Shown piece after piece: positions 34,123 to 57,551 of a DNA stretch of 64,000 bases. This DNA comes from Desulfuromonas sp. GTDB taxonomy: Bacteria; Desulfobacterota; Desulfuromonadia; Desulfuromonadales; UBA2294. Numbering within the stretch: the stretch's first letter is position 1; every line of letters starts with the position of its first letter. Location of the stretch: the NCBI GenBank assembly GCA_002869615.1, contig PKUH01000004.1, forward strand, positions 1 through 64,000, read 5' to 3'. The notes below the pieces were generated by a model. The model was not told where the DNA came from. It worked only from the letters and a program-made list of their open reading frames with translations, and ran no database searches. The position numbers were made by a program, and so were the translations under genes.

Positions 34123-34137
34123 AAGTATTGTAATGCG

Positions 34138-34734
34138 ATGAATCCTAAAGTCGAATGGTTGTTAAAGCGCCCCAGGTATCAGCGTGGATTAATGCTGGCG
34201 GGTGTAATGGCTGTTGTTATCGGATTGTTTGTCTATCTGATGTATCTGCCATTGCAGGACGAATTGACGCGGCTGAACGAGGAAGATGAAACCCTGCAAA
34301 GGAAACTTGTAAATGATCGGCGGATAGCTTCCAACTTACCGAAATTCAAGGCAGAATATGAGAAAATGGTGACTCAGCTCGATCAGGCATTGACCGAGCT
34401 TCCGAATGACAAGGAAATCCCCAAGCTTTTAACATCCATTGCCGCAGCGGCAAAGGAAAACGGCCTGGAGGTGCAATCATTCAAGCCGGGCAGCGAGAGC
34501 AAAAAAGCCTTTTATGCCGAGGTCCCGGTATCATTGAATCTGACGGGTACATTCCATCAGGTTGCAATGTTCTTTTATGATGTTGGCAATCTTCCCCGTA
34601 TTGTCAACCTGAGTAACGTCAAATTGGGTGGGAGTAATAAAGGTGCTGGCAAGGTGCGCCTGAGTGTGAACTGTCTTGCGACAACTTTCCGGTTCCTCAA
34701 CCCATCGGAAATGTCCGACAAGAAAAAAAAGTAA
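34138..34734 (+). CDS. pilO: Type IV pilus assembly protein PilO
   Basis: Partner of PilN in the periplasmic alignment ring. The 198-residue sequence has a short cytoplasmic tail, a transmembrane helix (about 18-40), a coiled coil (LQDELTRLNEEDETLQRKL) and a ferredoxin-like periplasmic domain with the family signature PVSLNLTGTFHQVAMFFYDV. It starts 15 nt after pilN. Confidence 0.93.
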   Translation: MNPKVEWLLKRPRYQRGLMLAGVMAVVIGLFVYLMYLPLQDELTRLNEEDETLQRKLVNDRRIASNLPKFKAEYEKMVTQLDQALTELPNDKEIPKLLTSIAAAAKENGLEVQSFKPGSESKKAFYAEVPVSLNLTGTFHQVAMFFYDVGNLPRIVNLSNVKLGGSNKGAGKVRLSVNCLATTFRFLNPSEMSDKKKK

Positions 34735-34773
34735 TTATAAATTAATGTCACATCTTGCCGACTTGAGGAGAAT

Positions 34774-35301
34774 ATGAAGAAGCGGCTTATTGCATACATA
34801 CTGATTCTATTGTTGCTTTTATCGGTTTTTGGTTGTGGCTCTGATGACTCAGGAAAGAAGTCAACAACCAGAGTAAAAAAAACCGTTAATAAGACAAAAG
34901 AGGTAGCCAAGGTTCCGGTTGTGGAAGCCCCCAAAGCTGAAGAGAAATATATCTACAACCCGATAGGCAAGAGAGACCCTTTTGAGAATCCGTTACAGGT
35001 AATTGACGAAGTTGCACCTGGATCGGGTGAGCCTTTGACGCCATTGCAAAAGTTCGATCTGGGCCAACTGCGGCTGATCGGGGTAATTATCGGCAAGGGT
35101 GAACCACGCGGGATGGTCATCGCTCCAGATGGCAAGTCATTTATCCTGACAGTTGGCACCAAGGTTGGGAAGAACGATGGAACTGTCGTTGATATTACGA
35201 CTGATGCAATTATCGTTAAAGAAAAATATTACGACTTTACCGGAGAGATAAAAACGAGTGTTCAACAGATTATGCTTCCTAAAGCGGGAGGAGTAAAATA
35301 G
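34774..35301 (+). CDS. pilP: Type IV pilus lipoprotein PilP
   Basis: Periplasmic lipoprotein that joins the PilNO ring to the PilQ secretin. The 175-residue product has a lipobox (LLLLSVFGCG, Cys at about 21), a flexible Lys/Thr-rich linker, the RDPFENPL motif at about 69 and a beta-rich C-terminal domain (FDLGQLRLIGVI, RGMVIAPDGKSF). pilQ follows after 1 nt. Confidence 0.93.
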   Translation: MKKRLIAYILILLLLLSVFGCGSDDSGKKSTTRVKKTVNKTKEVAKVPVVEAPKAEEKYIYNPIGKRDPFENPLQVIDEVAPGSGEPLTPLQKFDLGQLRLIGVIIGKGEPRGMVIAPDGKSFILTVGTKVGKNDGTVVDITTDAIIVKEKYYDFTGEIKTSVQQIMLPKAGGVK

Positions 35302-35302
35302 C

Positions 35303-38071
35303 ATGATGAATCAGGTATTTAAGAGATCTGTCAGGCGTTTATGCATCTTGTTGTCAACGGTTCTGTTGACCCTGATGTTCGGGTTGCCTTCTGCCGTTTT
35401 TGCGGCAGCACCTGTCAACAAGATGGACAAGGTTGACATCAGTACCGCTTCGGGATCTCCCGTGGTGATGATAACAACCGAAAATCCGGTTGGCTATCGT
35501 TACACGGTATATGATTCAATCGATCCTGTACGTGTTGTTGTTGATTTCCCGGGGATGGATGTCGATGCAGTTGATGCTCCTGAAGTAAACGATGCCGGTG
35601 TTGTCAGTGATGTCAAAATCTCCTCCTTTGATCTGACTTCAGGGAAACTGGGCCGGCTGGAGGTTATTCTCTCCCGGTCAGCGGCTTATGATGTTTCCCT
35701 GACTGACAACGTCTTTACCATGACCTTCAGTGACTCTGTCGAGCCGAGTGCAGCAGCTGTCCAGGCAGAACCTGAACCGCTTGCGAAAACGGATGCTGAA
35801 CCAGAGGTCCCGGAAGAGTCGGAAGACATCAAGATCGCATCACCTGAACCAGAGCCGGTTCCTGTCAACTCAGAGTCTGCCGTTTCTTCAGCCAGTTCGA
35901 GTCCGGCCTCGGTTGTTACGGGGGTTTCAGTTAATGATTCTTCCCTTTCTATTAATGCGGATGGTCGTATCGAGATCTTTAAGTACTTCAAGCTCGGTGC
36001 TCCGGCCCGGCTTGTAGTTGATGTGTATGGTGTAAAAGCTGGATTCAAGGAGCGCAAATTCAACCTGGGGAACGGTTTCAAACAGATGCGGGTCGGTGCT
36101 TATAAGGACAAAGCCCGTTTTGTTCTGGATGCCGTCGATACGCTTCCTGAATACACGGTAGTCACTCAGGATAATTCTGTTGCAGTTGCCTGGGGTGACG
36201 CTGTCGGTGAGGATGTCCCAGTTTCCTCGTCCTCGGTTGTGTCGGGGGTGCCGGTCAATATTGAAGCTGTAGATTTTGATATCGAGGGGAATGAATCGGT
36301 CGTCAGGGTGACCTTGAGTAATTCTGCCAATATCATTGAGCCGACAGTAAAAGACGATATTGTCGGTTTCGGCGTTCGCAACGCAACCATATCCAGAGCT
36401 TTGCGCCGGGCTGTCGATGCATCTTCGTTCCCGAGTTCGATCCGGCTTGTAACTCCGTACACTGTTCTGGTCGGAGACAGCCAGGATGTCCGGTTTGCCG
36501 TTGAACTGAAAGGGCCGAGTGAATACGAGCTGGACCAGAGTGGAAACGTTGTGACTCTAAGGGTCGTTAATGGTCCGTTTGCGGAACCGGAAGCACTAAA
36601 AGACAGCACTATTGCGGTTGCCGTGGAAGAATCCTCTGCCGGCCAGGAAGATATGGCCGGGAGTGATGCAGAATCATCTGAAACCGCAGAGTCCACAGAG
36701 ATTTCGAATGCCGAAGTCAGTAATATCGTCGATGAATCGGTTATGGGTTCGGTTACTGAAGATGAAGTTTCTGCAGCAGATATGGCCGGATCAGATGTTC
36801 CGGTAAAATCGCGTACGGTTTCTACCACAGCTGAAAATATTTATGCCGGTCAGCGGATTTCACTGGTTTTTGACAAAGCCAATATTCGTAATATTCTGCA
36901 GCTGATTGCCGAGGTCAGTAACCTGAATATTCTTGCCGGAGACGGAGTTGATGGCACCATCACTCTGCGCTTAATTGATGTCCCATGGGATCAGGCTCTT
37001 GATCTTATTCTCGAAACAAATGACCTTGGGATGATTCGGGACGGCAATGTCGCCCGTATTCTTCCGAAAGAGTCAATCCGGGCGATGGATGAGGCGAAGT
37101 TCACCGCCGACCGGACCAAGGAAAAGCTTGAAAATCTTGTCACAGAAGTCATAACCGTCAGTTATACCGATCTTGGAAATATCTCGAAACCGAGTCGGGA
37201 ATTGTTGACCGATCGTGGAAAGATCACCGAGGATAGTCGGAATAAACAGCTTATTGTCACCGATATTCCGAAGATCATTGAAGAGGTTCGAAACCTGGTA
37301 TCAATACTGGATACTCCGGAGAAGCAGGTTCTGATTGAAGCAAGGATTGTTGAAGTCAGCACAACCGCCAACCTTGACCTTGGCATTAACTGGGGTTTTG
37401 CCTATAGCCAGGACGCTTCTTTTTCGGTACCACATCAGGGGACCAGTACCCAGGAGTCGGGGCTCGGTCTGGGCGGAAACTTCGTTGTCCAGGCTTTTGC
37501 TGCCGGTCTCGGACAAACAGCCGGTATCGGGGGTGAATTCAGCTGGGGACGGGTCGGTTTTGATACGACAATCCTTGATCTCCGTCTCGGTGCTCTTGAA
37601 ACCGCAGGTGAAGGCCAGGTTATTTCAAACCCGCGCATCATGACTCTCAATGGTGAAAAAGCCAAGATTTCCCAGGGCACCATGATTCCGTATCAGACGG
37701 TTTCATCGAGTGAGATCAAAACCGAACTGGTCGAGGCTGCTTTGTCGCTCGAAGTGACTCCGGTTATCAATCCGGACGGTTCGGTTATTCTTGAAATCAA
37801 GGCAACCAACAGTACGCCTGGATCAACGGTTGCGACCGGCGCCGGCGCCGCACCATCCATTGACACCAAAGAGGCTGAAACAAAGATGCTGGTCATGGAT
37901 AGCGAAACCATGGTTATTGGCGGAATCTACGTCGAAAAGGATGATTACAGCGAGAATGGCGTGCCGCTTCTTATGGATATCCCACTGATCGGTCATCTCT
38001 TCAAGTCAACGAAAACGAACAAAAACCGCACTGAACTGATGATTTTTATAACCCCGAGAATCATCGAATAA
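35303..38071 (+). CDS. pilQ: Type IV pilus secretin PilQ with three AMIN-like domains
   Basis: Outer-membrane channel for the pilus. The 922-residue protein has a signal peptide ending AVFAAA, three beta-rich AMIN-type segments (about 45-145, 205-300 and 318-430) that bind peptidoglycan in relatives, two acidic Ser/Glu-rich linkers (about 148-205 and 430-510), a secretin short domain (VFDKANIRNILQLIAEVSNLNI at about 523, split here as VFDKANIRNIL and AEVSNLNI), N1-type modules and the C-terminal secretin core ending MIFITPRIIE. It is longer than Pseudomonas PilQ, as I recall about 710 residues. Start is ATG 35303 or the next ATG at 35306. Confidence 0.95.
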   Translation: MMNQVFKRSVRRLCILLSTVLLTLMFGLPSAVFAAAPVNKMDKVDISTASGSPVVMITTENPVGYRYTVYDSIDPVRVVVDFPGMDVDAVDAPEVNDAGVVSDVKISSFDLTSGKLGRLEVILSRSAAYDVSLTDNVFTMTFSDSVEPSAAAVQAEPEPLAKTDAEPEVPEESEDIKIASPEPEPVPVNSESAVSSASSSPASVVTGVSVNDSSLSINADGRIEIFKYFKLGAPARLVVDVYGVKAGFKERKFNLGNGFKQMRVGAYKDKARFVLDAVDTLPEYTVVTQDNSVAVAWGDAVGEDVPVSSSSVVSGVPVNIEAVDFDIEGNESVVRVTLSNSANIIEPTVKDDIVGFGVRNATISRALRRAVDASSFPSSIRLVTPYTVLVGDSQDVRFAVELKGPSEYELDQSGNVVTLRVVNGPFAEPEALKDSTIAVAVEESSAGQEDMAGSDAESSETAESTEISNAEVSNIVDESVMGSVTEDEVSAADMAGSDVPVKSRTVSTTAENIYAGQRISLVFDKANIRNILQLIAEVSNLNILAGDGVDGTITLRLIDVPWDQALDLILETNDLGMIRDGNVARILPKESIRAMDEAKFTADRTKEKLENLVTEVITVSYTDLGNISKPSRELLTDRGKITEDSRNKQLIVTDIPKIIEEVRNLVSILDTPEKQVLIEARIVEVSTTANLDLGINWGFAYSQDASFSVPHQGTSTQESGLGLGGNFVVQAFAAGLGQTAGIGGEFSWGRVGFDTTILDLRLGALETAGEGQVISNPRIMTLNGEKAKISQGTMIPYQTVSSSEIKTELVEAALSLEVTPVINPDGSVILEIKATNSTPGSTVATGAGAAPSIDTKEAETKMLVMDSETMVIGGIYVEKDDYSENGVPLLMDIPLIGHLFKSTKTNKNRTELMIFITPRIIE

Positions 38072-38643: not shown

Positions 38644-39752
38644 TGCTGGATAATTTCGATTCAATTAAAGTTGGTCTGGGCGATAAAAGCTACCCGATCT
38701 ATATTGGGTCAGGTACGATTAATTCGCTGCCGGAATTTTTGACGGAAGTCAGGTTCCCTTCAAATATCACGATTATCTCGAATGAAACAGTGTACGCTTT
38801 GCACGGTGAGACGCTTCATTCGGTACTCGATAATGTCGGGCTGTCGGTCTCGGTGATAACGATTGAGGATGGTGAAGAGTTCAAAAACATGTCGACCCTG
38901 ATGTCGATTTACGATGGGTTGGTACAAAACAATACGGATCGGAGTTCCGGTATAATTGCCCTGGGTGGCGGCGTTGTCGGCGATATTGCCGGTCTCGCTG
39001 CAGCGACATTCCTGCGGGGCATTGATTATTTGCAGATTCCAACAACATTGCTGGCTCAGGTAGACAGCTCGGTAGGTGGAAAAACGGCTGTCAATCACTC
39101 CCTGGGTAAAAATCTTATTGGTACCTTTAATCAACCAAAACTCGTCTGTATTGATATTGATTTCCTCGACACGCTTCCGGAGCGGGAATTTCTGGCGGGA
39201 GTTGCCGAGATTATCAAATACGGGATTATTCGTGACCTTAGTTTTTTTAACTGGATGAATGATAACCGTCAGGCTCTATTAGCAAAGGAGCCCAATGCAG
39301 TTGTTCATGCGGTAAAGACGTCTTGCCAAATTAAAGCTGATATTGTAGAAATTGATGAAAAAGAATCGTCGATCATGGCTATTCTTAATTATGGACATAC
39401 TTTCGGTCACGCGGTTGAATCATTAACTGATTACCGGGAATTTCTCCACGGCGAGGCGGTGGCAATAGGAATGGTTGTCGCGGCCCGGTGTTCGCATCTG
39501 ACCGGATATTGTACGATAGAGACAGTCAAGGACATCAGGGAGATCATCAAGGCCTATAAATTGCCGGTAACAATTCCTGGTTTCAGTGTGGAACAATACC
39601 TTGAAGCAATGATGCACGATAAGAAAATGAAAAACGGCCGTTTAAATATGGTTTTGAACAAGGACATAGGTAATTGCGTGGTCGAGGAAATTGCTGATCC
39701 CGCTTCCCTGTTTAATGACATAATCGGCAAGGTGGAACTGAACAGTGTCTGA
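38643..39752 (+). CDS. aroB: 3-Dehydroquinate synthase
   Basis: Cyclises DAHP to 3-dehydroquinate, using NAD+ and a divalent metal. The 369-residue protein (ATG 38643 shares one base with the aroK stop) has IALGGGVVGDIAGLAAATFLRG (here IALGGGVVGD and AAATFLRG), the metal- and substrate-binding TTLLAQVDSSVGGKTAVNH and NYGHTFGHAVE with its His ligands. It overlaps the next gene by 8 nt. Confidence 0.95.
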   Translation: MLDNFDSIKVGLGDKSYPIYIGSGTINSLPEFLTEVRFPSNITIISNETVYALHGETLHSVLDNVGLSVSVITIEDGEEFKNMSTLMSIYDGLVQNNTDRSSGIIALGGGVVGDIAGLAAATFLRGIDYLQIPTTLLAQVDSSVGGKTAVNHSLGKNLIGTFNQPKLVCIDIDFLDTLPEREFLAGVAEIIKYGIIRDLSFFNWMNDNRQALLAKEPNAVVHAVKTSCQIKADIVEIDEKESSIMAILNYGHTFGHAVESLTDYREFLHGEAVAIGMVVAARCSHLTGYCTIETVKDIREIIKAYKLPVTIPGFSVEQYLEAMMHDKKMKNGRLNMVLNKDIGNCVVEEIADPASLFNDIIGKVELNSV

Positions 39753-40590
39753 AGATTTGCGCGCTAAAATAGAGGAATACAAAGCCGCCCTGGTGCAGGA
39801 TCCGAAATCGTCGGTTTTTTCTGGTCTTTGTAATGCCTATCTGCAATTGGGGCAACTTGATGATGCTCTGGAAGTTGCTCTTAAGGGGAGCTGGGAGTCG
39901 CCGCAATCGACCGTCGGTCATCTTGCCGTCGGGCGTGTGTATTTTGAAAAAAAAGTACTGAAAAAAGCGGAAGAAGCATTTTTCAGGGCGCTTTCTATCG
40001 ATCAGATGTGCATACCTGCATACAAGGGTTTGGCCAGAATTTATCGAAATAATGGCGATCATGCCAAAGCTTCCGATATTTTAACCAAGGCGATCATGCT
40101 TGATCCCGGTGACGCCTCTTTGCAACAGATGATCGAGTCCCTGTCGTCACCTGAAGTCAGTACTCAGTCGAGTCCCGAAGCCGCAACCGAGATAGCAACT
40201 GGAAACAATGTTGCGTCACAGGAGCCCGCAATGGACCAACCTTCTGATGGAATGAAGTCGATTACGACCGCTACGATTGCTGATATCTACATCGAGCAGG
40301 GGCTGTATGACAAAGCACTCGAAGTATATCGTGAATTATTAACAGAGAAGCCGAATGATCCCGGCGTTCAGCAGAAAATTTCCGAACTCCAGGGGCTCAT
40401 TAATAGTGCCGGGTCGACCACTCCGAATCCGAATGACTCTCAATCATCGGAAGATGTGCAGCAATCTACAGTTGCTCCAGTTGTTGATGAGGCCATGGCT
40501 GCAAATACTTCGGGTGGAGATGATCTTTCTGTTATTGCAAAACTGAATGATTGGCTCGGATCTATTCAGGCAAGGAGGAACCGTGTTTAA
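39745..40590 (+). CDS. TPR-repeat cytoplasmic protein of the aro operon
   Basis: Unknown role. The 281-residue product (GTG 39745, overlapping aroB by 8 nt) has no signal peptide. It has TPR-like repeats at about 15-50, 50-85 and 85-120, an Ala/Ser/Thr-rich linker (about 130-170), another TPR (IADIYIEQGLYDKALEVYREL) and an acidic, low-complexity C-terminal region. Its stop overlaps the roadblock/LC7 gene, so the two are probably made together. A scaffold for that small GTPase-regulator-like protein is a reasonable guess only. Confidence 0.65.
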   Translation: MSEDLRAKIEEYKAALVQDPKSSVFSGLCNAYLQLGQLDDALEVALKGSWESPQSTVGHLAVGRVYFEKKVLKKAEEAFFRALSIDQMCIPAYKGLARIYRNNGDHAKASDILTKAIMLDPGDASLQQMIESLSSPEVSTQSSPEAATEIATGNNVASQEPAMDQPSDGMKSITTATIADIYIEQGLYDKALEVYRELLTEKPNDPGVQQKISELQGLINSAGSTTPNPNDSQSSEDVQQSTVAPVVDEAMAANTSGGDDLSVIAKLNDWLGSIQARRNRV

Positions 40591-40942
40591 CGAAATATTA
40601 CAAGGTATTGTCCAGCAGACTGGTGGCGGAATCGGCGCTGTTCTTATGGGATATGACGGGATTGCTATTGAACAGCATCTTGAACCGATTGAAGGGTTTG
40701 ATTTTCAGTTGCTGGCTGTTGAATATGCCAATGTACTGAAGGAAATCAAAAAAACGGTAGAAATTCTCGATACCGGTCGAATGGAAGAGGTATCCATAAA
40801 AACAGAGCGTTTTTTCGTTATTATCCGGTCACTGACGGACGAATACTTCCTGGCACTGACCCTCGATCGTACAGGGAATTTCGGTAAAGGTCGTTACCTG
40901 ATGATGCGTGATGCCCCGAAACTTCTTGAAGCGCTGATGTGA
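40583..40942 (+). CDS. Roadblock/LC7-domain protein (MglB-like)
   Basis: The 119-residue protein starts at GTG 40583 behind a perfect AAGGAGG (40572-40578). It is a single roadblock/LC7 domain: FNEILQGIVQQTGGGIGAVLMGYDGIAIEQ, here FNEILQGIVQQ and GAVLMGYDG, then a beta-rich second half. Proteins of this fold include MglB, the GTPase-activating partner of MglA that sets cell polarity and pilus pole switching in Myxococcus. No MglA gene is in the window. Location near the pil genes makes a polarity role plausible but unproven. Confidence 0.78.
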   Translation: MFNEILQGIVQQTGGGIGAVLMGYDGIAIEQHLEPIEGFDFQLLAVEYANVLKEIKKTVEILDTGRMEEVSIKTERFFVIIRSLTDEYFLALTLDRTGNFGKGRYLMMRDAPKLLEALM

Positions 40943-47450: not shown

Positions 47451-47537
47451 GCCCGGGTGGCGGAACTGGTAGACGCAAGGGACTTAAAATCCCTCGGGAG
47501 CAATCCTGTACGAGTTCGATTCTCGTCCCGGGTACCA
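47451..47537 (+). tRNA. tRNA-Leu, anticodon UAA
   Basis: An 87-nt class II tRNA including an encoded CCA. Acceptor arms GCCCGGG and CCCGGGT pair with one G-U. The anticodon stem GGGA/TCCC encloses CTTAAAA, giving anticodon TAA. A long variable arm (CGGGAGCAATCCTG region) and the T arm with GTTCGAT are clear. It has its own promoter and terminator, and no repeated 3' end pointing to an integrated element was seen. Confidence 0.96.
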
Positions 47538-47550
47538 TTAAAGTATCAGA

Positions 47551-47595
47551 ACATTAAGGGGATTGCCACAACAGGCAGTCCCCTTAATGTTTTTG
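47551..47595 (+). terminator. Terminator of tRNA-Leu
   Basis: A 17-bp stem (47551-47567 with 47574-47590, one G-T pair, loop ACAACA) ends in a T5 tract. The remaining sequence to 47834 is AT-rich and holds no convincing gene or consensus promoter. Confidence 0.92.
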
Positions 47596-47834: not shown

Positions 47835-48368
47835 ATGAAAACAGTATTGCATAGTTCCGTTATGGTGAGAACGATCCTCACTGGTTTGATCCTGTTGAGC
47901 ATGGTGACCATTGCGTCGGCGAAGGACTTGTCCCGGGGCCAGGGTAAAAGTCTCGATGAGCAGGTACATGGTATCAAGAGTGAAGTGCTGTCGATCGCCA
48001 AGGAACTCGACAAGTTGGAAGAGAGGTTGTTGTATCCATCCCATACCCAGATAGCGGTTTTTGTTTCAATGCGCAAGAATCAGACCTTCAGCCTTGATTC
48101 AGTCGATATCGAACTGGATGGGAAAAATATCGCGTACCATATCTATACGTCCCGGGAATTGAATGCTCTCACTGATGGCGGCGTCCAGAACATTTTTACC
48201 GGTAATGCAGCGATTGGAATGCATGAATTCAAGGTGACGATGCGTGGCAAGTCCTCTGCCGGAGAGGATATTCGGCTGGTCAAGAGCTTTTCATTCGAAA
48301 AAACGGCCGAAGCGGTCATTGCCGAACTCCTGTTGTCCGAAAAATCAATCACTTTAATCGACAGATGA
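47835..48368 (+). CDS. Exported protein, first gene of the Agl/Glt-like cluster
   Basis: Unknown. The 177-residue product (ATG 47835; ATG 47820 is an alternative) has a signal peptide ending VTIASA, an amphipathic helical region (about 35-65, SEVLSIAKELDKLEERLL) and a beta-rich domain (about 70-155) that looks immunoglobulin-like (IAVFVSMRKNQTFSLDSVDIELDGK, shown in part). It probably works in the periplasm with the TPR proteins that follow 3 nt downstream. No named family was recognised. Confidence 0.7.
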   Translation: MKTVLHSSVMVRTILTGLILLSMVTIASAKDLSRGQGKSLDEQVHGIKSEVLSIAKELDKLEERLLYPSHTQIAVFVSMRKNQTFSLDSVDIELDGKNIAYHIYTSRELNALTDGGVQNIFTGNAAIGMHEFKVTMRGKSSAGEDIRLVKSFSFEKTAEAVIAELLLSEKSITLIDR

Positions 48369-48371
48369 CAG

Positions 48372-50306
48372 ATGCGTAGTCGTTGGGTTGTCATAATAGC
48401 GGGTACGCTCCTCCTCTGCACCGTTAATGTTGCAGTGAGTAGTGCGCGTACCGCAGACGAACTTTCGGATCTTGCTGTCCGGGAGGCTCATTACTCGACC
48501 CTTACCGGTGAGCTGTTTGCTGCGATATCCCGCCTCGACCGGGAGTTGTTGCAACGGAAAAAAGAGAGAATTCTCGCCGGGGAACGGGATCGCTACTCCG
48601 AAGCCGATCTCGAGGTTTTGATCAAGCATATTTCTATTGAGATTGCTTACCGGATGCACCAGAGGGATGGCGTTCGCCTGATTGATACCATCATGACCAT
48701 CAGTAATGACAAAGAGCGCAACCTGTTGCTCTATCGTTTGGCAAATCTCTATTTACAGAAGGATCAGCCACAAAAAGCTCAAGCAGTTCTTGATCGGGTC
48801 AACGGTGAAATATTGCCTGAACTGAAAGGTGCCCTTGCCTTCACCCGGGCCCAGGTGCTGATGGCAAACGGGAAGCTTGATGCCGCTATTCCCATTCTTG
48901 ACGAACTCAGAAAGTCGCAAAGTTTTATCGGATTCGCCGGTTATAATCGCCAGGCGCAAAGTCTGCTCGGATTTGCTGATTATAATCTCGGTATTGCTTA
49001 TCTGTTAAACGGTAATATAGAAGAAGGCCGTCAACAACTCGATCTTGCCGGCCAGATTGTCAGCGAAGAAGAATTGACCCGGTCGCTTCGTGACAGAGCG
49101 AATCTGATGCTTGGCGATCAATTACTGACCGATGGTTTGTACGCCGAGGCCGGCCAGGTTCTTGATCGAGCAAGACTCAAAGGCCCTTTTTCTGCTCAAG
49201 CCTTATTGTCAGCCGGGTGGTCAGCAGCTATGCAAGCTGATTATGAGCAGGCCCTGGTGCCATGGACCTTGCTGTCCGAGCGCAATGTGACCGATGCGGC
49301 AGTTCAGGAAGCAATGCTTGCCGTACCATATAGTTATGGCAAGCTCGGTGTTTATAGCAAGGCAGCGCTCCTTTATGGTCAGGCTGTGGAATCATTTGAA
49401 AACGAGATTGTAAAACTGAAGGATTCGCTTGCCAGTGTTGGTCAAGGGGGTTTTCTCAAAAATATTTCCAGAAAAGAGTTGAGGCGGCAGGAAAACTGGG
49501 TCGTTAAATTACGCGAACAACCAGATATGCCTGAGACGTATTACCTGCTTGACCTGATGGCAACAGATGAATTTCAGCAAGCACTGGATAATTATGTTGA
49601 CCTGGCCCATCTACAAGAAAAACTGATTCGCTGGCAACAGGACATTCAGGCTTATGAAGGATTGATCAAGAAACGACGTGCTTATTATAAGCCGATTTTG
49701 CCGGGTATCGACGCTGAATTTCGGAAGCTCGAATCCCGTATGCAGCTGCGGCTGAAACAGCGAAATCAGATTGCACAGCAATTGATTGCGATAAAAAACT
49801 CACCCCGACCCGATGTTCTGGCGACCGCCGGGGAACGAGAACTCCTCGGAGAAATTGATCGTATCGACCGGGCGCTTCGTCCCTATCATACGATCAAGAC
49901 CCGTGCCCGGGTTGATCGTCTTCGGGGTCTGGTTGTCTGGTCGATATACAAAAACTATGATCAGCGCTTGCAGGCGACGACTTCCAATTTCAAGAGGCTC
50001 GACGAGGTTGTTGCTATTCTGGAAAAACAGTACAACAGTTACCTTCTGTACCGCAAGGCAGCGACCCGGAGCTATAGCGGTTATGGCCGAAGCATAGAGG
50101 ACGTGCGCAGTCGGATCGATAACGCACTGAAGGAAACGATCCCCGTGCTGAATCATCAGGGAGAACTGCTCGAGTCGATGGTTACAGCTGAATTGAACAA
50201 GCGACTTGAAAAGCTGGAACAGATGCAGATCAAGGCTCGATTTGCGATGGCCGACAGCTATGATCGTGCTACCCGAAGTCGAAATAATGCGGGAGGCATC
50301 CGTTGA
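48372..50306 (+). CDS. Periplasmic TPR protein of the Agl/Glt-like cluster
   Basis: The 644-residue product has a signal peptide (WVVIIAGTLLLCTVNVAVSSA), no lipobox, TPR-like helix pairs over about 110-345 (LANLYLQKDQPQKAQAVLDRV, LLTDGLYAEAGQVLDRA) and a long coiled-coil-rich C-terminal half (about 400-640). In Myxococcus and its relatives the gliding machine includes several such periplasmic TPR proteins (GltC, GltD and GltE). It may correspond to GltC by size, but this is uncertain. It overlaps the next gene by 4 nt. Confidence 0.7.
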   Translation: MRSRWVVIIAGTLLLCTVNVAVSSARTADELSDLAVREAHYSTLTGELFAAISRLDRELLQRKKERILAGERDRYSEADLEVLIKHISIEIAYRMHQRDGVRLIDTIMTISNDKERNLLLYRLANLYLQKDQPQKAQAVLDRVNGEILPELKGALAFTRAQVLMANGKLDAAIPILDELRKSQSFIGFAGYNRQAQSLLGFADYNLGIAYLLNGNIEEGRQQLDLAGQIVSEEELTRSLRDRANLMLGDQLLTDGLYAEAGQVLDRARLKGPFSAQALLSAGWSAAMQADYEQALVPWTLLSERNVTDAAVQEAMLAVPYSYGKLGVYSKAALLYGQAVESFENEIVKLKDSLASVGQGGFLKNISRKELRRQENWVVKLREQPDMPETYYLLDLMATDEFQQALDNYVDLAHLQEKLIRWQQDIQAYEGLIKKRRAYYKPILPGIDAEFRKLESRMQLRLKQRNQIAQQLIAIKNSPRPDVLATAGERELLGEIDRIDRALRPYHTIKTRARVDRLRGLVVWSIYKNYDQRLQATTSNFKRLDEVVAILEKQYNSYLLYRKAATRSYSGYGRSIEDVRSRIDNALKETIPVLNHQGELLESMVTAELNKRLEKLEQMQIKARFAMADSYDRATRSRNNAGGIR

Positions 50307-53300
50307 TCAGACTTTTATTTATATTGATACTGGTTGTCGGCATGGTCGCGTGTTCTTCGGCGCCGCGTAAAGGAACAATCGGCCAGTTGCGACGGGTCGA
50401 TATCGCTATCGAAAAGGAGAATATTGATCAGGGGTTTGATAAGGCGATCGAAAGTTACGAACGATTCCTGGAGAAGACAGAAAAGACAGCGATGACGCCC
50501 GAAGCTATCCGTCGTCTGGCCGATCTCAAGGTAGAAAAGGAGTATGGTCTAATTACCGAGAGCAGCTCGGATTCAGCAAAATCTGACCTGGCGCGGCCGA
50601 AAAAAAGTACTAAAAAAACCTCGGCAAAAACTACCAAAAAAGATATCGACTCACCCGGTCGGTCGGCGCCGAGGAAAAAACAGAGAGCAACTCCTGATGT
50701 AACATCGGCCCTTGCTTACAGGAAAGGTGAGACGGATACCAATTTTGAAGATCGGAGTACGTCATCGATCCCTCCTGACACTGCTTCGACAGTTGATGAA
50801 TTGCCGGCTGAGTTCAACCTTGAACGGACCGGCGCGAAAGAGGCGGTTGACCTTTATCGGAAACTGCTCACCGAATACCCGGAATACGAACGGAGCGATC
50901 AGGCTCTTTACCAGCTCTCACGAGCCCTCGAAGAACAGGGGCAGGTTGAAGAATCGATGCTTGTGATGGAGCGTCTGGTCGCCGCGTTCCCCGATTCCAA
51001 ATATCTTGATGAAGTCGAGTTCCGACGGGGCGAATCCTTTTTTGCCAGGCGCAACTACCCCGCGGCCGAAAAAGCATACGAAAGTGTCGTCGCCATCGGT
51101 GAAAAATCACAGTTTTATGTTCTGGCACTTTTCAAACTCGGTTGGAGCTATTACAAGCAGGATCTTTACAATAAGGCGTTACACAAATTTATTGCTCTGC
51201 TCGATTACAAGGCTGCATCCGGTTATGATTTCGGACGGATCAGTGATGATCAGGAAGGCAAGCGGATCAGAGACACCTTGCGAATTGCCAGCCAGAGTTT
51301 TTCCAATCTCGGCGGTGTGACTGCCATAATCGATTATTTCTCCGGTTATGGCCGGCGCAAGTATGAGCATGTTGTCTACGCCAGTCTGGGCGAATACTAT
51401 TTCAGTAAACAACGCTACAACGACGCGGTAACGACCTACTCCACCTTTGTCAGCCGCAACCGAACCCACCGGCAGGCACCTCTCTTTGATTTGCGGGTCA
51501 TTGCAATTAACAAGGCCGGCGGCTTTGCTTCTCTGGTTATCGAGGCGAAAAAGGAATATGTCAACCGTTATGGCTTCGGTGCCGATTACTGGAAACATTT
51601 CAAACCGGATTATCGCCCGGAAGTACTCGATGGGCTCAAGGTCACGTTATTTGACCTGGCAAACCATTATCATGCCAGATATCAGAACAAGCTAAAAACC
51701 AAAGAAAAGCCAAATAATCTGAAAGAGGCTCTGCACTGGTACCGGGAATTTCTCGGCTCGTTCCCGATGGTTGACGAATCGGCAGCGATGAACTATCAGC
51801 TGGCTGAATTGTTGCTGGAAAACAAGATGTATCATGAGGCCGCTCATGAATTCGAAAAGACGGCCTATGTTTATCCGGTTTTTGCCAAGGCTGAAAAAGC
51901 CGCATATGCCTCTGTTTATGCCTTTCGTGAACATCTCAAGCAAGTGAAGGGTGACGACAGGGAGCAGGCGGTAAGGGATGTTATTCGCGTCTCCCTGAAG
52001 TTTGCCGAATCTTATCCGCAGAATAAAAAAGCTGCAGCTGTACTGGCTGCAGCAGTCGATGAACTTTATGCTCTCAAAGATTATAAATCGGCGCTGATTG
52101 CAGCCCGGAATCTGATTGAACGTTTTCCGTCGATTCCGAAGGATGTTCGTCGCTCGGCGTTACTGGTTGCGGCGCATTCTTCCTTTGAGCTTGAACTCTA
52201 TGCTGATGCTGAAAAAGCGTACACCGATGTCCTGAAGCTGGTACCGGAGAGTGATGCGTTGCATGATACATTGACCGATAATCTGGTCGCATCCATCTAC
52301 AAGCAGGGGGAGGCGGCTAATCGTTCCCAAAATTATAAGCAGGCGGCTGAACATTTTCTTCGGGTCGCCCGGGTCGCACCAGCATCGAAACTCCGCCCGA
52401 CGGCAGATTTCGATGCTGCCGTTGCTCTGATCAAGGTCGAGGAATGGCCGATTGCTGCCTCGATTCTGACCGACTTTCGTAAAAGATTCCCGAAACATAA
52501 ATTGCAACCCGAAGTTACCAAGAAACTGGCCTATATCTACCGGGAAGAGGGTGACTTTGCCAAGGCTGCGGCTGAATTTTTACGGATAGATGCTGAAACG
52601 ACCGAGCCGGAACTCCGTCGCGAAGCACTCCTGACGGCAGCCGATCTTTACCGGAAGGTCGATGATCTGGCCACGGCGAGACAGGTCTATCGCCGATATA
52701 TTGAGATGTTTCCGGAGCCGGTGGATGTCAATATTGAAGCTCGAGACAATCTTGCTACGATTCTCAAGGAACAGGGTGAACAAAAGCTCTACCTTGATGA
52801 ATTGCAGAACCTTGTCGACCTTGAAGCGGCTGCCGGGGAATATCAAACCCTGAAAACCCGGGAGATCGCCGGACTTGCGGCCCTGATTCTTGCCAGGGTC
52901 GATTATGAAAAATCGGTTGCGGTGCGTCTGGTCGAGCCGTTTGCCAAGAACCTGCAGCGCAAGCAGGCTCTGGTAAAGAGAGTGACCGAGGCTTATACCA
53001 AACTGTTTGATTACGAAATTGGAGTTGTTACGGCGGAGGCGACTTTTTACCTTGCCGAAACCTATGCCGATTTCAGCAGGTCCCTGATGAACTCAGAGCG
53101 GCCGGACGGGCTGAGCCCTCTCGAATCGGAGCAATATGAACTGGCGCTGGAAGAACAGGCGTTTCCGTTTGAGGAAAAGGCGATCGAGATGCACCAGGCG
53201 AATATCGAGTTGATATCGCGAGGAATCTATAACGAGTGGATCGAAAATAGCCTGGACAAGCTCGCTGTCTTCATGCCGGCCCGTTATGAAAAGCCGGAGA

Positions 53301-53488
53301 TGGAAAACAATAAATTCGCGTCGATGCAAGGCTTTCGCTTCGAGAATAAAGAGCTCTATCGGATTAAGCAGGCTGAAGCGGCGCGCGCTGCCGAGGCAAA
53401 GAACAGCCGAATGTCGGAAAGTGGGCAAAGCAAACGTTCCGACGGCGTTGATCAAACACCTGCTTCGACCGGGGGGAGGACAGACTGA
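50303..53488 (+). CDS. Large TPR lipoprotein (GltD/AgnA-like)
   Basis: The 1061-residue protein starts with a signal peptide and lipobox (LVVGMVACSS), so it is membrane-anchored by lipid. A Lys/Ser/Thr-rich low-complexity segment (about 85-125) is followed by many TPR-type repeats from about 180 to 860 (ALYQLSRALEEQGQVEESMLV, FKLGWSYYKQDLYNKALHKF, given in part), then a helical region and a charged, Ala-rich end. Its size, lipidation and neighbours resemble GltD of the Agl/Glt machine. It shares one base with the start of the next gene. Confidence 0.72.
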   Translation: MIRLLFILILVVGMVACSSAPRKGTIGQLRRVDIAIEKENIDQGFDKAIESYERFLEKTEKTAMTPEAIRRLADLKVEKEYGLITESSSDSAKSDLARPKKSTKKTSAKTTKKDIDSPGRSAPRKKQRATPDVTSALAYRKGETDTNFEDRSTSSIPPDTASTVDELPAEFNLERTGAKEAVDLYRKLLTEYPEYERSDQALYQLSRALEEQGQVEESMLVMERLVAAFPDSKYLDEVEFRRGESFFARRNYPAAEKAYESVVAIGEKSQFYVLALFKLGWSYYKQDLYNKALHKFIALLDYKAASGYDFGRISDDQEGKRIRDTLRIASQSFSNLGGVTAIIDYFSGYGRRKYEHVVYASLGEYYFSKQRYNDAVTTYSTFVSRNRTHRQAPLFDLRVIAINKAGGFASLVIEAKKEYVNRYGFGADYWKHFKPDYRPEVLDGLKVTLFDLANHYHARYQNKLKTKEKPNNLKEALHWYREFLGSFPMVDESAAMNYQLAELLLENKMYHEAAHEFEKTAYVYPVFAKAEKAAYASVYAFREHLKQVKGDDREQAVRDVIRVSLKFAESYPQNKKAAAVLAAAVDELYALKDYKSALIAARNLIERFPSIPKDVRRSALLVAAHSSFELELYADAEKAYTDVLKLVPESDALHDTLTDNLVASIYKQGEAANRSQNYKQAAEHFLRVARVAPASKLRPTADFDAAVALIKVEEWPIAASILTDFRKRFPKHKLQPEVTKKLAYIYREEGDFAKAAAEFLRIDAETTEPELRREALLTAADLYRKVDDLATARQVYRRYIEMFPEPVDVNIEARDNLATILKEQGEQKLYLDELQNLVDLEAAAGEYQTLKTREIAGLAALILARVDYEKSVAVRLVEPFAKNLQRKQALVKRVTEAYTKLFDYEIGVVTAEATFYLAETYADFSRSLMNSERPDGLSPLESEQYELALEEQAFPFEEKAIEMHQANIELISRGIYNEWIENSLDKLAVFMPARYEKPEMENNKFASMQGFRFENKELYRIKQAEAARAAEAKNSRMSESGQSKRSDGVDQTPASTGGRTD

Positions 53489-54156
53489 TGTCATTTCTTA
53501 TGGTGAAATGTCGTCTGGTTACTGCCATAGCCCTGACGGCAATATTGGTATTATCAGGATGTGCCGGCACCTCCGGCCCTTCTGCGCCTCTTCCGGAAAG
53601 CCCGTCGGTCAGGCCTGATTCGGATACGGTTTCGCGATTAAAGGAGGGGCGGATCGGTTTTTTTATTGCCGATAAGGGGCAGTATAATGTCAATCAGCGT
53701 GATCTTTTCGTGTTGGGTGTTGATGCTTTGAATACAGGTGCGTATGATGTGGCTGTTGACTGTTTCAAGGCAATTGTCAAGGCGGCACCGACCCAGACTG
53801 CGCCCTATCTTAATCTGGCGATTGCCTATATCCGGAGTGGTCAGGATGATCGAGCCGTTGCTCCGTTGAAAAAGGTTCTGGACAAGGTTGCCGGACATCC
53901 GTTAGCAAGTCATGAGTATGGTCTTTTGATGCGCCGCGCCGGTCGGTTTAATGAGGCAAGGGATGTTTATGAGAAATCGCTGGAGCTGTATCCCGAATAC
54001 TACCCTCTGCATAAGAACCTGGGGATTCTCTGCGACATCTATCTGAACGATCTTGAATGCGCTTCCAGTCAGTATGAACTGTTTCTTGAGGCACAGCCGG
54101 AAGATGAACTGGTCAGGTTATGGCTGGCCGAAGTCCGGGGGCGGATGCGCCGCTAA
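53488..54156 (+). CDS. TPR lipoprotein (GltE/AglT-like)
   Basis: The 222-residue product has a lipobox (ILVLSGCAG, Cys at about 25) and three to four TPRs (LGVDALNTGAYDVAVDCFKAI, LAIAYIRSGQDDRAVAPLKK). Adventurous-gliding protein AglT/GltE of Myxococcus is also a TPR protein encoded beside a GltD-type gene. Outer-membrane retention is likely because no Asp follows the lipid Cys. The next gene follows after 25 nt. Confidence 0.74.
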   Translation: MSFLMVKCRLVTAIALTAILVLSGCAGTSGPSAPLPESPSVRPDSDTVSRLKEGRIGFFIADKGQYNVNQRDLFVLGVDALNTGAYDVAVDCFKAIVKAAPTQTAPYLNLAIAYIRSGQDDRAVAPLKKVLDKVAGHPLASHEYGLLMRRAGRFNEARDVYEKSLELYPEYYPLHKNLGILCDIYLNDLECASSQYELFLEAQPEDELVRLWLAEVRGRMRR

Positions 54157-54181
54157 AGATGTTCCTGCGGGAGAATAGAGT

Positions 54182-54481
54182 ATGAAAATAAAATTATTGA
54201 CATGCATTATCCTCGTTATCATTTCCGTGGCAGTGGCTTCGGCAAAAGAGGTTGAATCGGCGGGGCAAGGTAAAGTCAAGGCTCTTACCGGAATGTCGAT
54301 TGTCGGCAACGATGAAGCGCCGAAGGCGCTTTATATCGTGCCCTGGAAAAGTTCTGAAATCGGTGTAGAAACCGATCTCGACAGGACGCGCAACATCAAT
54401 TACAAACCTGTTGATCGGGAACAATTCAGACGCAAAGTTGATTATTATTACGTCAGTACGACAAGCAATACTGGGAGGTAG
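54182..54481 (+). CDS. Small exported protein of the Agl/Glt-like cluster
   Basis: A 99-residue secreted protein with signal peptide ending AVASA. The mature part has a short conserved-looking core (TGMSIVGNDEAPKALYIVPWK) and a basic, Tyr-rich end. No domain is recognised. Its place between the AglT-like lipoprotein and the TolQ-like gene suggests a small periplasmic part of the machine, perhaps GltF-like. That is positional inference only. Confidence 0.6.
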   Translation: MKIKLLTCIILVIISVAVASAKEVESAGQGKVKALTGMSIVGNDEAPKALYIVPWKSSEIGVETDLDRTRNINYKPVDREQFRRKVDYYYVSTTSNTGR

Positions 54482-54485
54482 TAAA

Positions 54486-55139
54486 ATGGATATCGTTTAT
54501 AGTTTGTTCGGTTTTTTTCAAAATGGTGGTCTGTTCATGTACCCGATACTGTTTGTCTTTGCAGTCGGTATGGCGATAGCCTTTGAACGTTGGATTCAGT
54601 TGGGGCGAGTCAAAAATGAAAATCGCAAGATATGGAACCGGGTTCAGCCGATGCTGGCCGAAGGGGATTATAATCAGGCGCGCACCCTCGTTGAAAAGGA
54701 TAAATCGACTATTGCCCGGATGCTTGCAATGGGGTTGGAACGTCAGGGAGCCGTACGCCGACGCGAAGATATTGAAATTGCAATGGAAGAAGGATTGATG
54801 GAGGTTATCCCGCAGCTTGAGAGGCGGACACATTATATCGGATTGCTGTCGAATATTGCAACTCTGCTCGGACTGCTCGGCACGATCATGGGCCTGATTG
54901 AGGCATTTACAGCTGTCGCCAATGCCAATCCAGCCGAAAAGGCCGACCTGCTGTCGGCCAGTATCTCAGTTGCCATGAATACAACGGCTTTCGGGCTGAT
55001 GGTGGCCATCCCGCTTTTGCTACTGCATGCCAAACTGACCTCTACGACCGGGCAGATCATTGACAGCCTTGAGATGGCTTCGATTAAAACCCTGAACAGC
55101 ATTTCGAGTAACGCCAAGCGGCAGATGCAGGAAGGTTAA
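54486..55139 (+). CDS. TolQ/ExbB/MotA-type proton channel subunit (AglR-like)
   Basis: Inner-membrane channel subunit energising the machine. ATG 54486 follows GGGAGG (54473-54478) by 7 nt; the frame is open further upstream inside the previous gene. The 217-residue product has three transmembrane helices (about 15-38, 118-142 and 155-178) and the family core LLSNIATLLGLLGTIMGLIEAF (shown in part: ATLLGLLGTIMG) plus NTTAFGLMVAIP with the conserved Thr residues. Two ExbD/TolR-like genes follow, as in the Myxococcus aglRQS set. Confidence 0.88.
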   Translation: MDIVYSLFGFFQNGGLFMYPILFVFAVGMAIAFERWIQLGRVKNENRKIWNRVQPMLAEGDYNQARTLVEKDKSTIARMLAMGLERQGAVRRREDIEIAMEEGLMEVIPQLERRTHYIGLLSNIATLLGLLGTIMGLIEAFTAVANANPAEKADLLSASISVAMNTTAFGLMVAIPLLLLHAKLTSTTGQIIDSLEMASIKTLNSISSNAKRQMQEG

Positions 55140-55141
55140 TC

Positions 55142-55633
55142 ATGCTCAAGCGACGTTCCCGAAGGCGGTTTAAGGAAACGCCGGAACTGAATATTACGAC
55201 ATTTCTGAATCTGATGGTCGTTCTGATTCCGTTTCTGCTGATCAGTGCCGTATTTTCCAGGGTAACGATTCTTGAACTCAGTGTTCCGACAGCGGCATCC
55301 ACCAACGTCGCGGTCGATAAACCTGAAATGAGTGTTGAGGTGATTGTCCGGCAGGAAAAGCTCGAATTTTCCAACGGTTCCAAGGTTGTCGCGACAATCC
55401 CGAAAAAAGATGGCGAGTACGATCTGAAAAAGCTGAGTAGTCTGCTTCTGCGTATCAAATCTGATTATCCGCAAAAAGAGGATGCGATGGTCCTGATGGA
55501 GCCGGATATCAAATACGACTACCTGATTCAAATAATGGATGCGGTGAGAGGCGCAAGAGCCTGGGAAGAGGACTCGGAAGATTCAGTCCCTGTGCCGCTA
55601 TTCCCGGATATTTCGATCGGAGATGCGCCATGA
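55142..55633 (+). CDS. ExbD/TolR-like protein with Asn at the channel position
   Basis: The 163-residue bitopic protein has a very basic N-terminus (KRRSRRRFK), one transmembrane helix (LNLMVVLIPFLLISAVF, about 22-38) and a periplasmic domain. Normal ExbD/TolR proteins carry an Asp in the helix that conducts protons; here the aligned residue is Asn23 (TTFLNLMVV). The partner gene directly downstream keeps Asp27. It starts 2 nt after the TolQ-like gene and overlaps the next by ATGA. Confidence 0.85.
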   Translation: MLKRRSRRRFKETPELNITTFLNLMVVLIPFLLISAVFSRVTILELSVPTAASTNVAVDKPEMSVEVIVRQEKLEFSNGSKVVATIPKKDGEYDLKKLSSLLLRIKSDYPQKEDAMVLMEPDIKYDYLIQIMDAVRGARAWEEDSEDSVPVPLFPDISIGDAP

Positions 55634-56124
55634 GGGAATCCAGACGTATAAGACGGATGGCGCGAAACCGGAAAAAGGTTTCGGCTCTGAATCTGACTTC
55701 CTTGATGGATGTATTTACTATTCTCGTTTTCTTTCTTCTGGCCAATTCAGGTTCAAATGAAGTGTTAACTCCGCCGAAAAAGATCGAGTTGCCGAGTTCG
55801 GTAGTCGAATCGAAACCACGTGAGACAGTAGTCATTATTGTTGGTGCCGAGCAGGTCGTTGTTCAGGGTAAGGCGATTATTGAAACCAGGGATCTGATCG
55901 AGACGAAAGAGGGATTTATCCCGGAAATTTCCGAACGTTTGGCATTCCTCAGCAAGAGCGTTATTGGCATAAGTGACAGGACGATTGAAGACAGCAGGGA
56001 AGTGACTATTCTGGCTGATCGGGAAATCCCGTTTAATGTTTTGAAAAAGGTGATGTCTTCCTGCACGCTATCCGGTTACGGCAAGATCTCACTGGCGGTT
56101 CTGCAGAAAAGTACCCAGTCATAA
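55630..56124 (+). CDS. ExbD/TolR-like protein with the channel Asp
   Basis: The 164-residue product has a basic N-terminus (RRIRRMARNRKK), the helix signature LNLTSLMDVFTILVFFLL (about 20-37) with Asp27 in the proton-pathway position, and a periplasmic domain that ends in the usual ExbD fold (REIPFNVLKKVMSSC). It is coupled to the Asn-bearing paralogue by a 4-nt overlap and precedes the TonB-like gene by 2 nt. Confidence 0.87.
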   Translation: MRESRRIRRMARNRKKVSALNLTSLMDVFTILVFFLLANSGSNEVLTPPKKIELPSSVVESKPRETVVIIVGAEQVVVQGKAIIETRDLIETKEGFIPEISERLAFLSKSVIGISDRTIEDSREVTILADREIPFNVLKKVMSSCTLSGYGKISLAVLQKSTQS

Positions 56125-56126
56125 TA

Positions 56127-57551
56127 ATGAATAATATTGAATCGACAAAATTGGCTCACGAATTGGAGCCTTTGAACGGGCGTATCAAGCAATTAAAAGC
56201 GACGCGTGAGAATCTCGAACAGGAGATCCGCAAGGTTGATTCCGACCTTGACGAACTCGAGAGCCAACGACAACGCTATGATGCCCTGCAGGAGGTCTGT
56301 GCCGCCCTGACGAAGCTTGAAGATGTCGGCGCGAAAGATCTCTTCTGGGGCACACTTCCTGAAGGTGTTGACCGCGGCGAATCGTTTAGCCGGCTCTGCC
56401 AGTTGCCGGAAAAATACCGGGAACAAATCGAGGCGAAAACCAGAAGAAAAGAAGAATTGCAGTCGCAGATCAAGAAATGCTCCTTTGCTCTGTTTGAGCT
56501 GGAAGGAGATGTCTATGAGGCCTATCTGCGTGAACAGAAGAGACGCGACCAGTTTGTTATTGAGCGCGAAGTCGCTTTTTTCCCGATGCGTGCCGCGGTC
56601 ATGCCGTGGAGCAAAGAGACCGAGGGTGATCGATTATTCCGTCGAGCGGTATTGATTGCTTTCCTGATCAGTTTCCTGTTCGGAGTTGTCGTCCCGCTGG
56701 TAAATATCCCAATGCCGGAACGGACAGTCGAAACGATCGAGATTCCGGAACGGATTGCCAAATTGGTCAAGGATGTCCCGGTTCTACCTGAGCCCGAACC
56801 GGCACCGGTCCCTGAGCCGGAACCCCCGGTCGAAGAGGAGAAGAAAGTCGATGAACCGGAGCCGGCAAAGCAGGATACTAAACCGGAAATGCCAAAACAA
56901 CCGGCGGAGCAGGTTGCCCGCAAGAAAGTACAGAACACCGGCGTCCTTGCTTTTAAAGAGTCTTTTAAAGATCTGATCGTCGATGCCCCGGTCGCCAAGG
57001 TTGGCACTCAGGCACGTATCAGAGAAAATGCTCCAAAAGCGGGTGGCAGTCCGCAAGCGCGGCGCTCATTGGTTGCCATGCAGGCTACCAGCGGATCAAG
57101 CGGCGGCATCGACGCGACGGCGATCAGCCGCGAGGTTGATTCGGCAGGAGGAGGGAGCGGCAAACGGATCGGTGGAGTTGCATTCTCCCGGGTCGAAAGC
57201 TCGGTCGCAGATTTGGCAGAAAAAGAAGAACGTTCAGCTGGCAGTACGACCAGACCGGGACGGACCGACGAAGAGATCCAGATCGTTTTTGATCGCTACA
57301 AGGCGACGCTTTACCGGATTTATAATCGAGAACTCCGCAGGAACCCGACCCTGCGCGGCAATATCCTTTTGCGGATTACGATTCAGCCGAACGGTACGGT
57401 TTCGGCCAGTTCGGTCGAGTCGACCGATCTCGCATCGCCGGAACTTGTTGATAAAATCGTAGCACGCGTCCTCAGGTTTAATTTCGGACCGAAAAAGAAC
57501 GTTCCGGAAATAACGATTCTTTATCCAATCGATTTTCTGCCGGCAAGATAG
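56127..57551 (+). CDS. TonB-like protein with AgmX/PglI-type C-terminal domain (GltG-like)
   Basis: The 474-residue protein has a cytoplasmic coiled coil (about 1-135, LNGRIKQLKATRENLEQEI), one transmembrane helix (about 173-193), a Pro/Glu-rich periplasmic spacer (about 220-265), a flexible Gly/Ser region, and a TonB-fold C-terminal domain (about 385-474: YNRELRRNPTLRGNILLRI, TIQPNGTVSASSV). This tail matches the AgmX/PglI C-terminal domain of myxobacterial gliding proteins. The long cytoplasmic coiled coil is unlike classical TonB. It is the last gene of the cluster. Confidence 0.8.
   Translation: MNNIESTKLAHELEPLNGRIKQLKATRENLEQEIRKVDSDLDELESQRQRYDALQEVCAALTKLEDVGAKDLFWGTLPEGVDRGESFSRLCQLPEKYREQIEAKTRRKEELQSQIKKCSFALFELEGDVYEAYLREQKRRDQFVIEREVAFFPMRAAVMPWSKETEGDRLFRRAVLIAFLISFLFGVVVPLVNIPMPERTVETIEIPERIAKLVKDVPVLPEPEPAPVPEPEPPVEEEKKVDEPEPAKQDTKPEMPKQPAEQVARKKVQNTGVLAFKESFKDLIVDAPVAKVGTQARIRENAPKAGGSPQARRSLVAMQATSGSSGGIDATAISREVDSAGGGSGKRIGGVAFSRVESSVADLAEKEERSAGSTTRPGRTDEEIQIVFDRYKATLYRIYNRELRRNPTLRGNILLRITIQPNGTVSASSVESTDLASPELVDKIVARVLRFNFGPKKNVPEITILYPIDFLPAR

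Follow-up and report, generated by a model that had tools for sequence, protein, structure and literature searches.

The first 64,000 nucleotides of contig C4 in a draft Desulfuromonas sp. genome (assembly of 3.08 Mb in 121 contigs, 98% complete), a stretch that we call the window, carry an operon of nine genes, P1 to P9, resembling the motor and part of the periplasmic core of the myxobacterial gliding machinery, and raise the question of what such a machine moves. Luciano et al. 2011 (PMC3169522) reported gltC, D, E and G clustered with aglRQS, and with one further gene that Myxococcales lack, in Gammaproteobacteria, Geobacter, Fibrobacter and one betaproteobacterium; they called the function of this set unknown, and a 2013 paper treated this core as a stand-alone basal transport machine (PMC3858216). 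The operon belongs to that stand-alone Agl/Glt core complex, a kind already published, and it shares with the clusters of Luciano et al. its gene content, its single-operon layout, its range of taxa and the presence of extra genes, here P1 and P5, with no significant counterpart in the myxobacterial loci examined. New here are a candidate cargo, named by genomic linkage and co-occurrence, and a residue signature in the motor, both of which can be tested. We give slightly better than even credence to the reading that the operon is a core-complex member forming a proton-driven trans-envelope transducer that exports, extends or moves a pair of giant adhesin-like outer-membrane proteins, here A and B. 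If true, this would explain the role of the gliding motor's ancestor and add a proton-driven adhesin machine in several phyla.

The nine open reading frames (ORFs) all lie on the + strand, from 47820 (or an in-frame ATG at 47835) to 57551, with intergenic gaps of -4 to +25 nt, just as the first-pass annotation of this DNA had drawn the series. With P6 as query, 273 relatives were recovered from genome contigs, and the best 80 loci were kept; their titles span Desulfuromonadales, Desulfobacterales, Gammaproteobacteria, Myxococcota and Acidobacteria metagenome-assembled genomes (MAGs). By tblastn, 45 of the 80 have all nine genes and most of the others are cut by contig ends; apart from one locus with P6 alone (L032), the genes that were found share one strand and one common order. 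This conservation among relatives puts the nine-gene set far beyond chance.

When the ORFs flanking the operon were clustered across 79 loci, two same-strand neighbours recurred: after P9, a giant exported ORF (38 loci), and before P1, an ORF whose end looks outer-membrane-like (15 loci). In longer stretches the two proved to be one pair, A and B, found on either side of the operon: the order is A-B-P1..P9 in a Desulfuromonadales MAG (L146) and P1..P9-A-B in two gammaproteobacterial loci (L147, L149). A measures 1723-2808 amino acids (aa) in the loci read and has DUF11 repeats (8 stretches) and SdrD_B/Cna-like domains, and B (about 1700 aa) combines OmpA-like domains with a long stretch of beta-strands. 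The B region lies inside one ORF of 5088-5146 aa in four genomes titled Myxococcota or Deltaproteobacteria (G001-G004), and in the two of these that were read a single frame holding both A and B adjoins the operon (L168:1223-16570, - strand, 5115 aa; L169:1290-16727, - strand, 5145 aa). A giant exported gene adjoins the operon in all 38 loci with both flanks visible; it was recognised by profile as A downstream in 17 and as B upstream in 12, and by size in nine, where the ORF has at least 1096 aa (cut by the locus end), the expected place and an exported N-terminus. This count left out the 42 of 80 loci with a short or missing flank, some of which have a giant on one side (by profile, and downstream in L034, L041, L070 and L074) and some none on the sole visible side (for example L012, L022, L023 and L029). 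A model of the 723 C-terminal residues of B predicts about 30 beta-strands and matches the outer-membrane barrels LptD, BtuB and FhuA (best E 2.8e-8), which at a predicted local distance difference test score (pLDDT) of just 57 is evidence of a beta-barrel and not of a fold family. The literature searched, supplements aside, held no link between DUF11/OmpA-barrel giants and the Agl/Glt core, and the available text of PMC3169522 describes neither giant neighbours, nor their co-occurrence with the motor, nor the residue signature reported below. An OmpA-type lipoprotein-like gene also recurs near the operon in L007, L009, L019, L022, L026 and L079.

These neighbours bear on a second explanation, that the operon is a surface-polysaccharide transport machine like Nfs, the Myxococcus sporulation system in which paralogous Glt-like proteins, as here, are driven by AglRQS and move spore-coat polymer. 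The Agl-Nfs machine does work on a carbohydrate polymer (PMC3858216), and a glycosyltransferase and a sugar oxidoreductase are encoded at about 17-25 kb in the window. However, no polysaccharide gene family recurs beside the operon in the 79 loci, where A and B are the main recurrent neighbours, and pil, aro, outer-membrane-efflux and menaquinone-type genes separate the window's sugar genes from the operon. Nfs further differs in its cargo, the spore-coat polymer, and A/B giants are not mentioned in the part of its literature available to us. We regard polysaccharide transport as unlikely.

Motor and B also occur together across genomes. The window's class comprises 156 genomes, 27 of them motor-positive by a P6-type gene at E<=1e-60; a near-full B was found in 26 of these 27 (in one as a fragment) and in none of the 129 motor-negative genomes, and it lies on the same contig and strand as the motor in 24 of the 26. 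A gammaproteobacterial order (that of G006) comprises 147 genomes, of which 23 have core-type channels (22 at no less than 385 bits, and G600 with a partial one at 344.9) and 61, with a best channel at or below 325.4 bits, were set as motor-negative, the split being placed at the score gap after the scores had been seen. Near-full B was present in 20 of the 23 motor-positive genomes and in none of the other 124, linked to the motor in 16 of the 20 and in four on another contig or far away (about 950 kb in G611), yet retained. The B-positive tally includes a 683-aa fragment in G495 and split pieces in G480 and several gammaproteobacterial genomes. In the 61 genomes the sole AglR-type channel is a more distant one and near-full B is missing, so the partnership of motor and B is specific; a strict genomic partner in two distant groups names a candidate cargo.

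Several observations weigh against the A/B cargo. Fisher tests gave 9e-29 for the class and 8e-22 for the gammaproteobacterial order, values that kinship among the genomes makes too small. In the class, 8 motor-negative genomes, and in the order 11 genomes, have nothing beyond shorter or partial barrel matches, so the barrel family also exists outside the motor partnership, and in the order two genomes with a clear motor (G640, G677) and one with a partial motor (G600) lack near-full B. DUF11 proteins have many roles, and co-occurrence is no proof that the motor moves A and B. Finally, neither A nor B stands beside the operon in the window, no remnant of either is present in its 64 kb, and a B profile search of the window genome's assembly found no near-full B. 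The first-pass statement that surface adhesin genes are lacking therefore holds for the window and fails for its relatives, where giant adhesin-like genes adjoin the operon.

Among the 27 motor-positive genomes of its class, the window's genome alone lacks near-full B. Its best B match, a protein of 1958 aa (347.7 bits, C40:396-6272), carries Ig-like, DUF11, SdrD_B and OmpA domains and ends like a barrel; the partner is missing or replaced, perhaps by this diverged DUF11-OmpA-barrel protein. On one account the operon here has either lost its cargo and become an orphan or switched to the C40 protein; this account is compatible with a giant-protein cargo, and we hold it to be a serious possibility, though one well short of even. 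In its favour are the solitary position of this genome and the domains of the C40 protein, and also a genome of the same genus (G526, 87% complete) that has neither the motor nor a C40-like match at the same cut-off. On the other side, decay is hard to square with nine intact, conserved genes, a giant of similar score (G497, 407 bits) occurs without a motor, and B may be missing from an assembly in 121 contigs. A more distant B match, within the stretch C104:2716-14649 (L166), is a 1932-aa DUF11-OmpA protein after same-direction ORFs of 409, 168 and 1433 aa, and a 1988-aa protein of G008 gave a match similar to that of the C104 protein.

The nature of the motor was judged from its channel, P6, by comparison with four myxobacterial genomes picked by GltG matches. 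In all four the P6 profile scored highest (145-158 bits) on an AglR-like gene that precedes two TolR-like genes, the next-best channels reaching 106-120 bits at most. A tree of 34 channels places the core in a clade of its own (100/100) that groups with AglR and its paralogues (97/94), with a TolQ-like group apart (100/98); the position of the core as direct sister of AglR itself is weaker (84/76), and several branches are long. By sequence, P6 is a channel of Agl type that groups with AglR and not with TolQ. Together with the two TolR-like genes next to the channel (P7 and P8; ExbD scores of 50.8 and 53.8 bits), this supports the AglRQS-like channel of the first-pass annotation, whose family assignment is close to right.

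The same comparison touches a third explanation, in which the operon is a Tol-Pal-like constriction or integrity system serving outer-membrane upkeep. The motor class is homologous and the TonB-like layout of the transducer is shared with Tol-Pal and Ton systems, B has OmpA-like domains, as in Pal, and the best named NCBIfam models are TolQ for P6 (59 bits, cut-off 221) and YbgF for P3 (120.6 bits, cut-off 90.1). No AglR, GltC or GltD model appeared in the NCBIfam output for the operon proteins, and the picture of best matches, on which the first-pass annotation had hung its choice between Agl/Glt and Tol-Pal or Ton, is mixed. Against upkeep stand the tree, the four MotA/TolQ/ExbB genes that the window's genome has in all, and a patchy spread (27 of 156 class genomes) unlike that of a housekeeping role. 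Moreover, tolB and pal are not among the nine genes, and the operon differs from Tol-Pal and Ton in that its channel branches away from the TolQ-like group, it encodes five additional exported proteins and its partners are giants. We consider upkeep quite unlikely; neither it nor polysaccharide transport, the two uses that the first-pass annotation had suggested, gained support, and its broader suggestion, that the machine is ancestral and serves some other purpose, was already in print (PMC3169522, PMC3858216).

The motor carries a residue signature at three positions (Table). Val replaces the third-helix Glu in 79 of 81 P6 family members, and the Glu is kept in all 10 myxobacterial channels read; likewise Asp is present in all AglQ/AglS-like sequences from the myxobacterial genomes (n=12) at the axle position where P7 has Asn. 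In TolQR and ExbBD the channel Glu and axle Asp at these positions are the proton carriers. The paired Glu-to-Val and Asp-to-Asn changes suggest, from sequence, an axle with one proton site, and would be a natural test of how many such sites a motor of this kind needs. In L015, L017, L022, L023 and L026, P9 is followed after some 50-120 nt by another TolQ-like channel gene, and a pair of core-type channel genes separated by about 3 kb occurs in each of four genomes of the window's class (G422, G404, G450 and G476).

The remaining proteins match the Glt core in part. TPR repeats were found in P2, P3 and P4 with Pfam and NCBIfam. With the P3 profile, the GltD-like ORF ranks first in two of the four myxobacterial genomes and second in the other two. 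Two TPR ORFs of 1874 and 2087 aa outscore GltD in myxobacterial genomes (G377:C103:11667-14357; G186:C1:7254963-7255628). P2 matched, at 31 bits and in one of the four genomes, the ORF directly before gltD, gltE and a gltF-like ORF; its profile had no match in two genomes and two weak matches in G085. P4 scored 49-68 bits against ORFs at the GltE position, with other NCBIfam TPR models outscoring GltE; it is a generic TPR lipoprotein. P9 has an N-terminal coiled coil, one transmembrane segment, a Pro/Glu-rich stretch and an AgmX/PglI tail, with no FHA domain; the tail reaches 60.6 bits with the myxo_SS_tail model NF033768 (cut-off 40), and the GltG model gives 43.5 bits, under its cut-off of 650. 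The partial Glt core claimed by the first-pass annotation therefore stands for P3 as a GltD relative and for the GltG/GltJ-type tail of P9, and is weak for P2 as GltC and P4 as GltE. As the genome has a single AgmX/PglI tail, a separate gltJ elsewhere, for which the same annotation had proposed a search, is unlikely.

P1 and P5 have no match in Pfam or NCBIfam, and profiles of the two yielded nothing significant in the myxobacterial loci read. P1 is predicted to fold as a coiled-coil helix with an Ig/transthyretin-like beta-sandwich (model pLDDT 86), for which the PDB gave nothing at E<=0.001 and just weak transthyretin/Ig-like matches. P5 has the conserved motif GMSIVGNDEAPK..LYIVPWKSSE. Its identity with GltF, prompted by its place after the gltE-like gene and its similar size, was rejected, the hhalign score being 10.5 (probability 0.3) and shuffled GltF controls scoring higher (best 16.2, n=60).

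Table. Features of the operon and its upstream boundary, in window coordinates.
Feature	Position	Strand	Remark
tRNA-Leu(taa)	47451..47537	+	upstream boundary, outside operon
Terminator-like hairpin, 20 pairs	47548..47593	+	consensus scan only
P1, exported protein, 182 aa	47820..48368	+	in 50/80 loci, the others mostly cut
P2, exported TPR protein, 644 aa, GltC-like by place and weak similarity	48372..50306	+	
P3, TPR protein with lipoprotein-like signal, 1061 aa, GltD-like	50303..53488	+	
P4, small TPR lipoprotein, LSGC lipobox, 222 aa, in GltE's place	53488..54156	+	
P5, exported protein, 99 aa, in GltF's place	54182..54481	+	
P6, AglR-type MotA/TolQ/ExbB channel, 217 aa	54486..55139	+	MotA_ExbB 89.9 bits
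P6 codon 162, Val in place of third-helix Glu	54969..54971	+	
P7, TolR/ExbD-like axle subunit 1 (AglQ-like), 163 aa	55142..55633	+	
P7 codon 23, Asn where TolR/ExbD have proton-carrying Asp	55208..55210	+	78/78 family members
P8, TolR/ExbD-like axle subunit 2 (AglS-like), 164 aa	55630..56124	+	
P8 codon 27, invariant Asp	55708..55710	+	76/76 family members
P9, GltG/TonB-like transducer, 474 aa	56127..57551	+	
AgmX/PglI C-terminal domain of P9	57264..57536	+	sole such domain in genome at E<=0.001

By analogy with TolQ, structures of which were the only PDB sequence matches at E<=1e-8, P6 would form a pentameric wheel around a P7/P8 heterodimer axle and use the proton motive force. P9 would span the inner membrane and carry the motion into the periplasm, where the TPR proteins P2, P3 and P4, with P1 and P5, would relay it to the outer membrane. 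The load in relatives would be B, through its periplasmic OmpA-like domains and large outer-membrane beta-barrel end, and A, as a long DUF11-repeat surface protein with a putative adhesin function. An independent hint is that DUF11 proteins have been linked to the aggregation of methanogen cells (PMC10787695). Such handling of A and B may be likened to that of outer-membrane and adhesin proteins by AglRQS-Glt and of SprB by GldLM. GldLM, working with type IX secretion, uses protons to export and move giant adhesins such as SprB; the homology was compared through P3 alone, which matched the PorW/SprE TPR model weakly (43 bits, cut-off 250).

The Myxococcus AglRQS-Glt machine shares with the operon an AglR-type channel, two TolR-like subunits, TPR proteins and an AgmX/PglI-tailed transducer. 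In contrast to that machine, the genes here form a single operon, P9 is without FHA, one axle Asp is changed to Asn and the channel Glu to Val, and a second GltJ-type tail is lacking. B was absent from all four searched myxobacterial genomes with Glt clusters, which gave OmpA-domain matches only. The operon might itself be a gliding engine, having the same kind of motor and transducer, and giant surface proteins could serve as adhesins, as in the SprB or CglB systems. We nevertheless find gliding improbable: the window's genome has no separate GltJ-type tail, and Luciano et al. (PMC3169522) argue that the core by itself is insufficient for motility and that most carriers have no documented gliding. 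Returning to A and B as cargo, an extension to which we give somewhat less than even odds is that the ancestral gliding core was a transporter or actuator of giant outer-membrane adhesins: eleven genes for motor, transducer and two giants, inherited or moved together, whose motor has a single protonatable axle Asp and no channel Glu, and from which gliding would have arisen by a cargo swap to GltA/B/H/K-CglB.

A further independent hint comes from expression data on a cluster in Fibrobacter (FSU genes) that we infer to be a core complex. According to the portion of PMC4619616 available, its ExbD-like and TonB-like proteins FSU_2401, 2402 and 2403 were detected solely on cellulose, and the TPR pair and channel (FSU_2397, 2398 and 2400) in all conditions; the neighbouring OmpA protein FSU_2396 was found on cellulose only, and the OmpA protein Fisuc_1891, possibly the same gene, on glucose too. 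In the available text of a second study, several of these proteins were more abundant on cellulose (PMC6851124).

In the window, menaquinone-type and outer-membrane-efflux genes precede the operon, which looks independent of them because a tRNA-Leu gene and a strong terminator-like hairpin lie between; downstream is an AMMECR1-family gene in the opposite orientation. An origin of the operon from a plasmid or phage was discarded, as only 5 plasmid records, with channels of <60% identity, and no phage were matched. The G+C content falls to 0.45-0.49 between 12000 and 32000, where the genes sampled include the glycosyltransferase and the sugar oxidoreductase, and this region is possibly a surface-polysaccharide island. 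A PilM-type gene and a secretin (922 aa, AMIN domain), as expected in a type IV pilus cluster, lie within 32504-38071 and are followed by shikimate-pathway genes; a TPR gene and then a roadblock/LC7 gene (39745-40942) are flanked by dehydroquinate-synthase and dehydroquinase genes.

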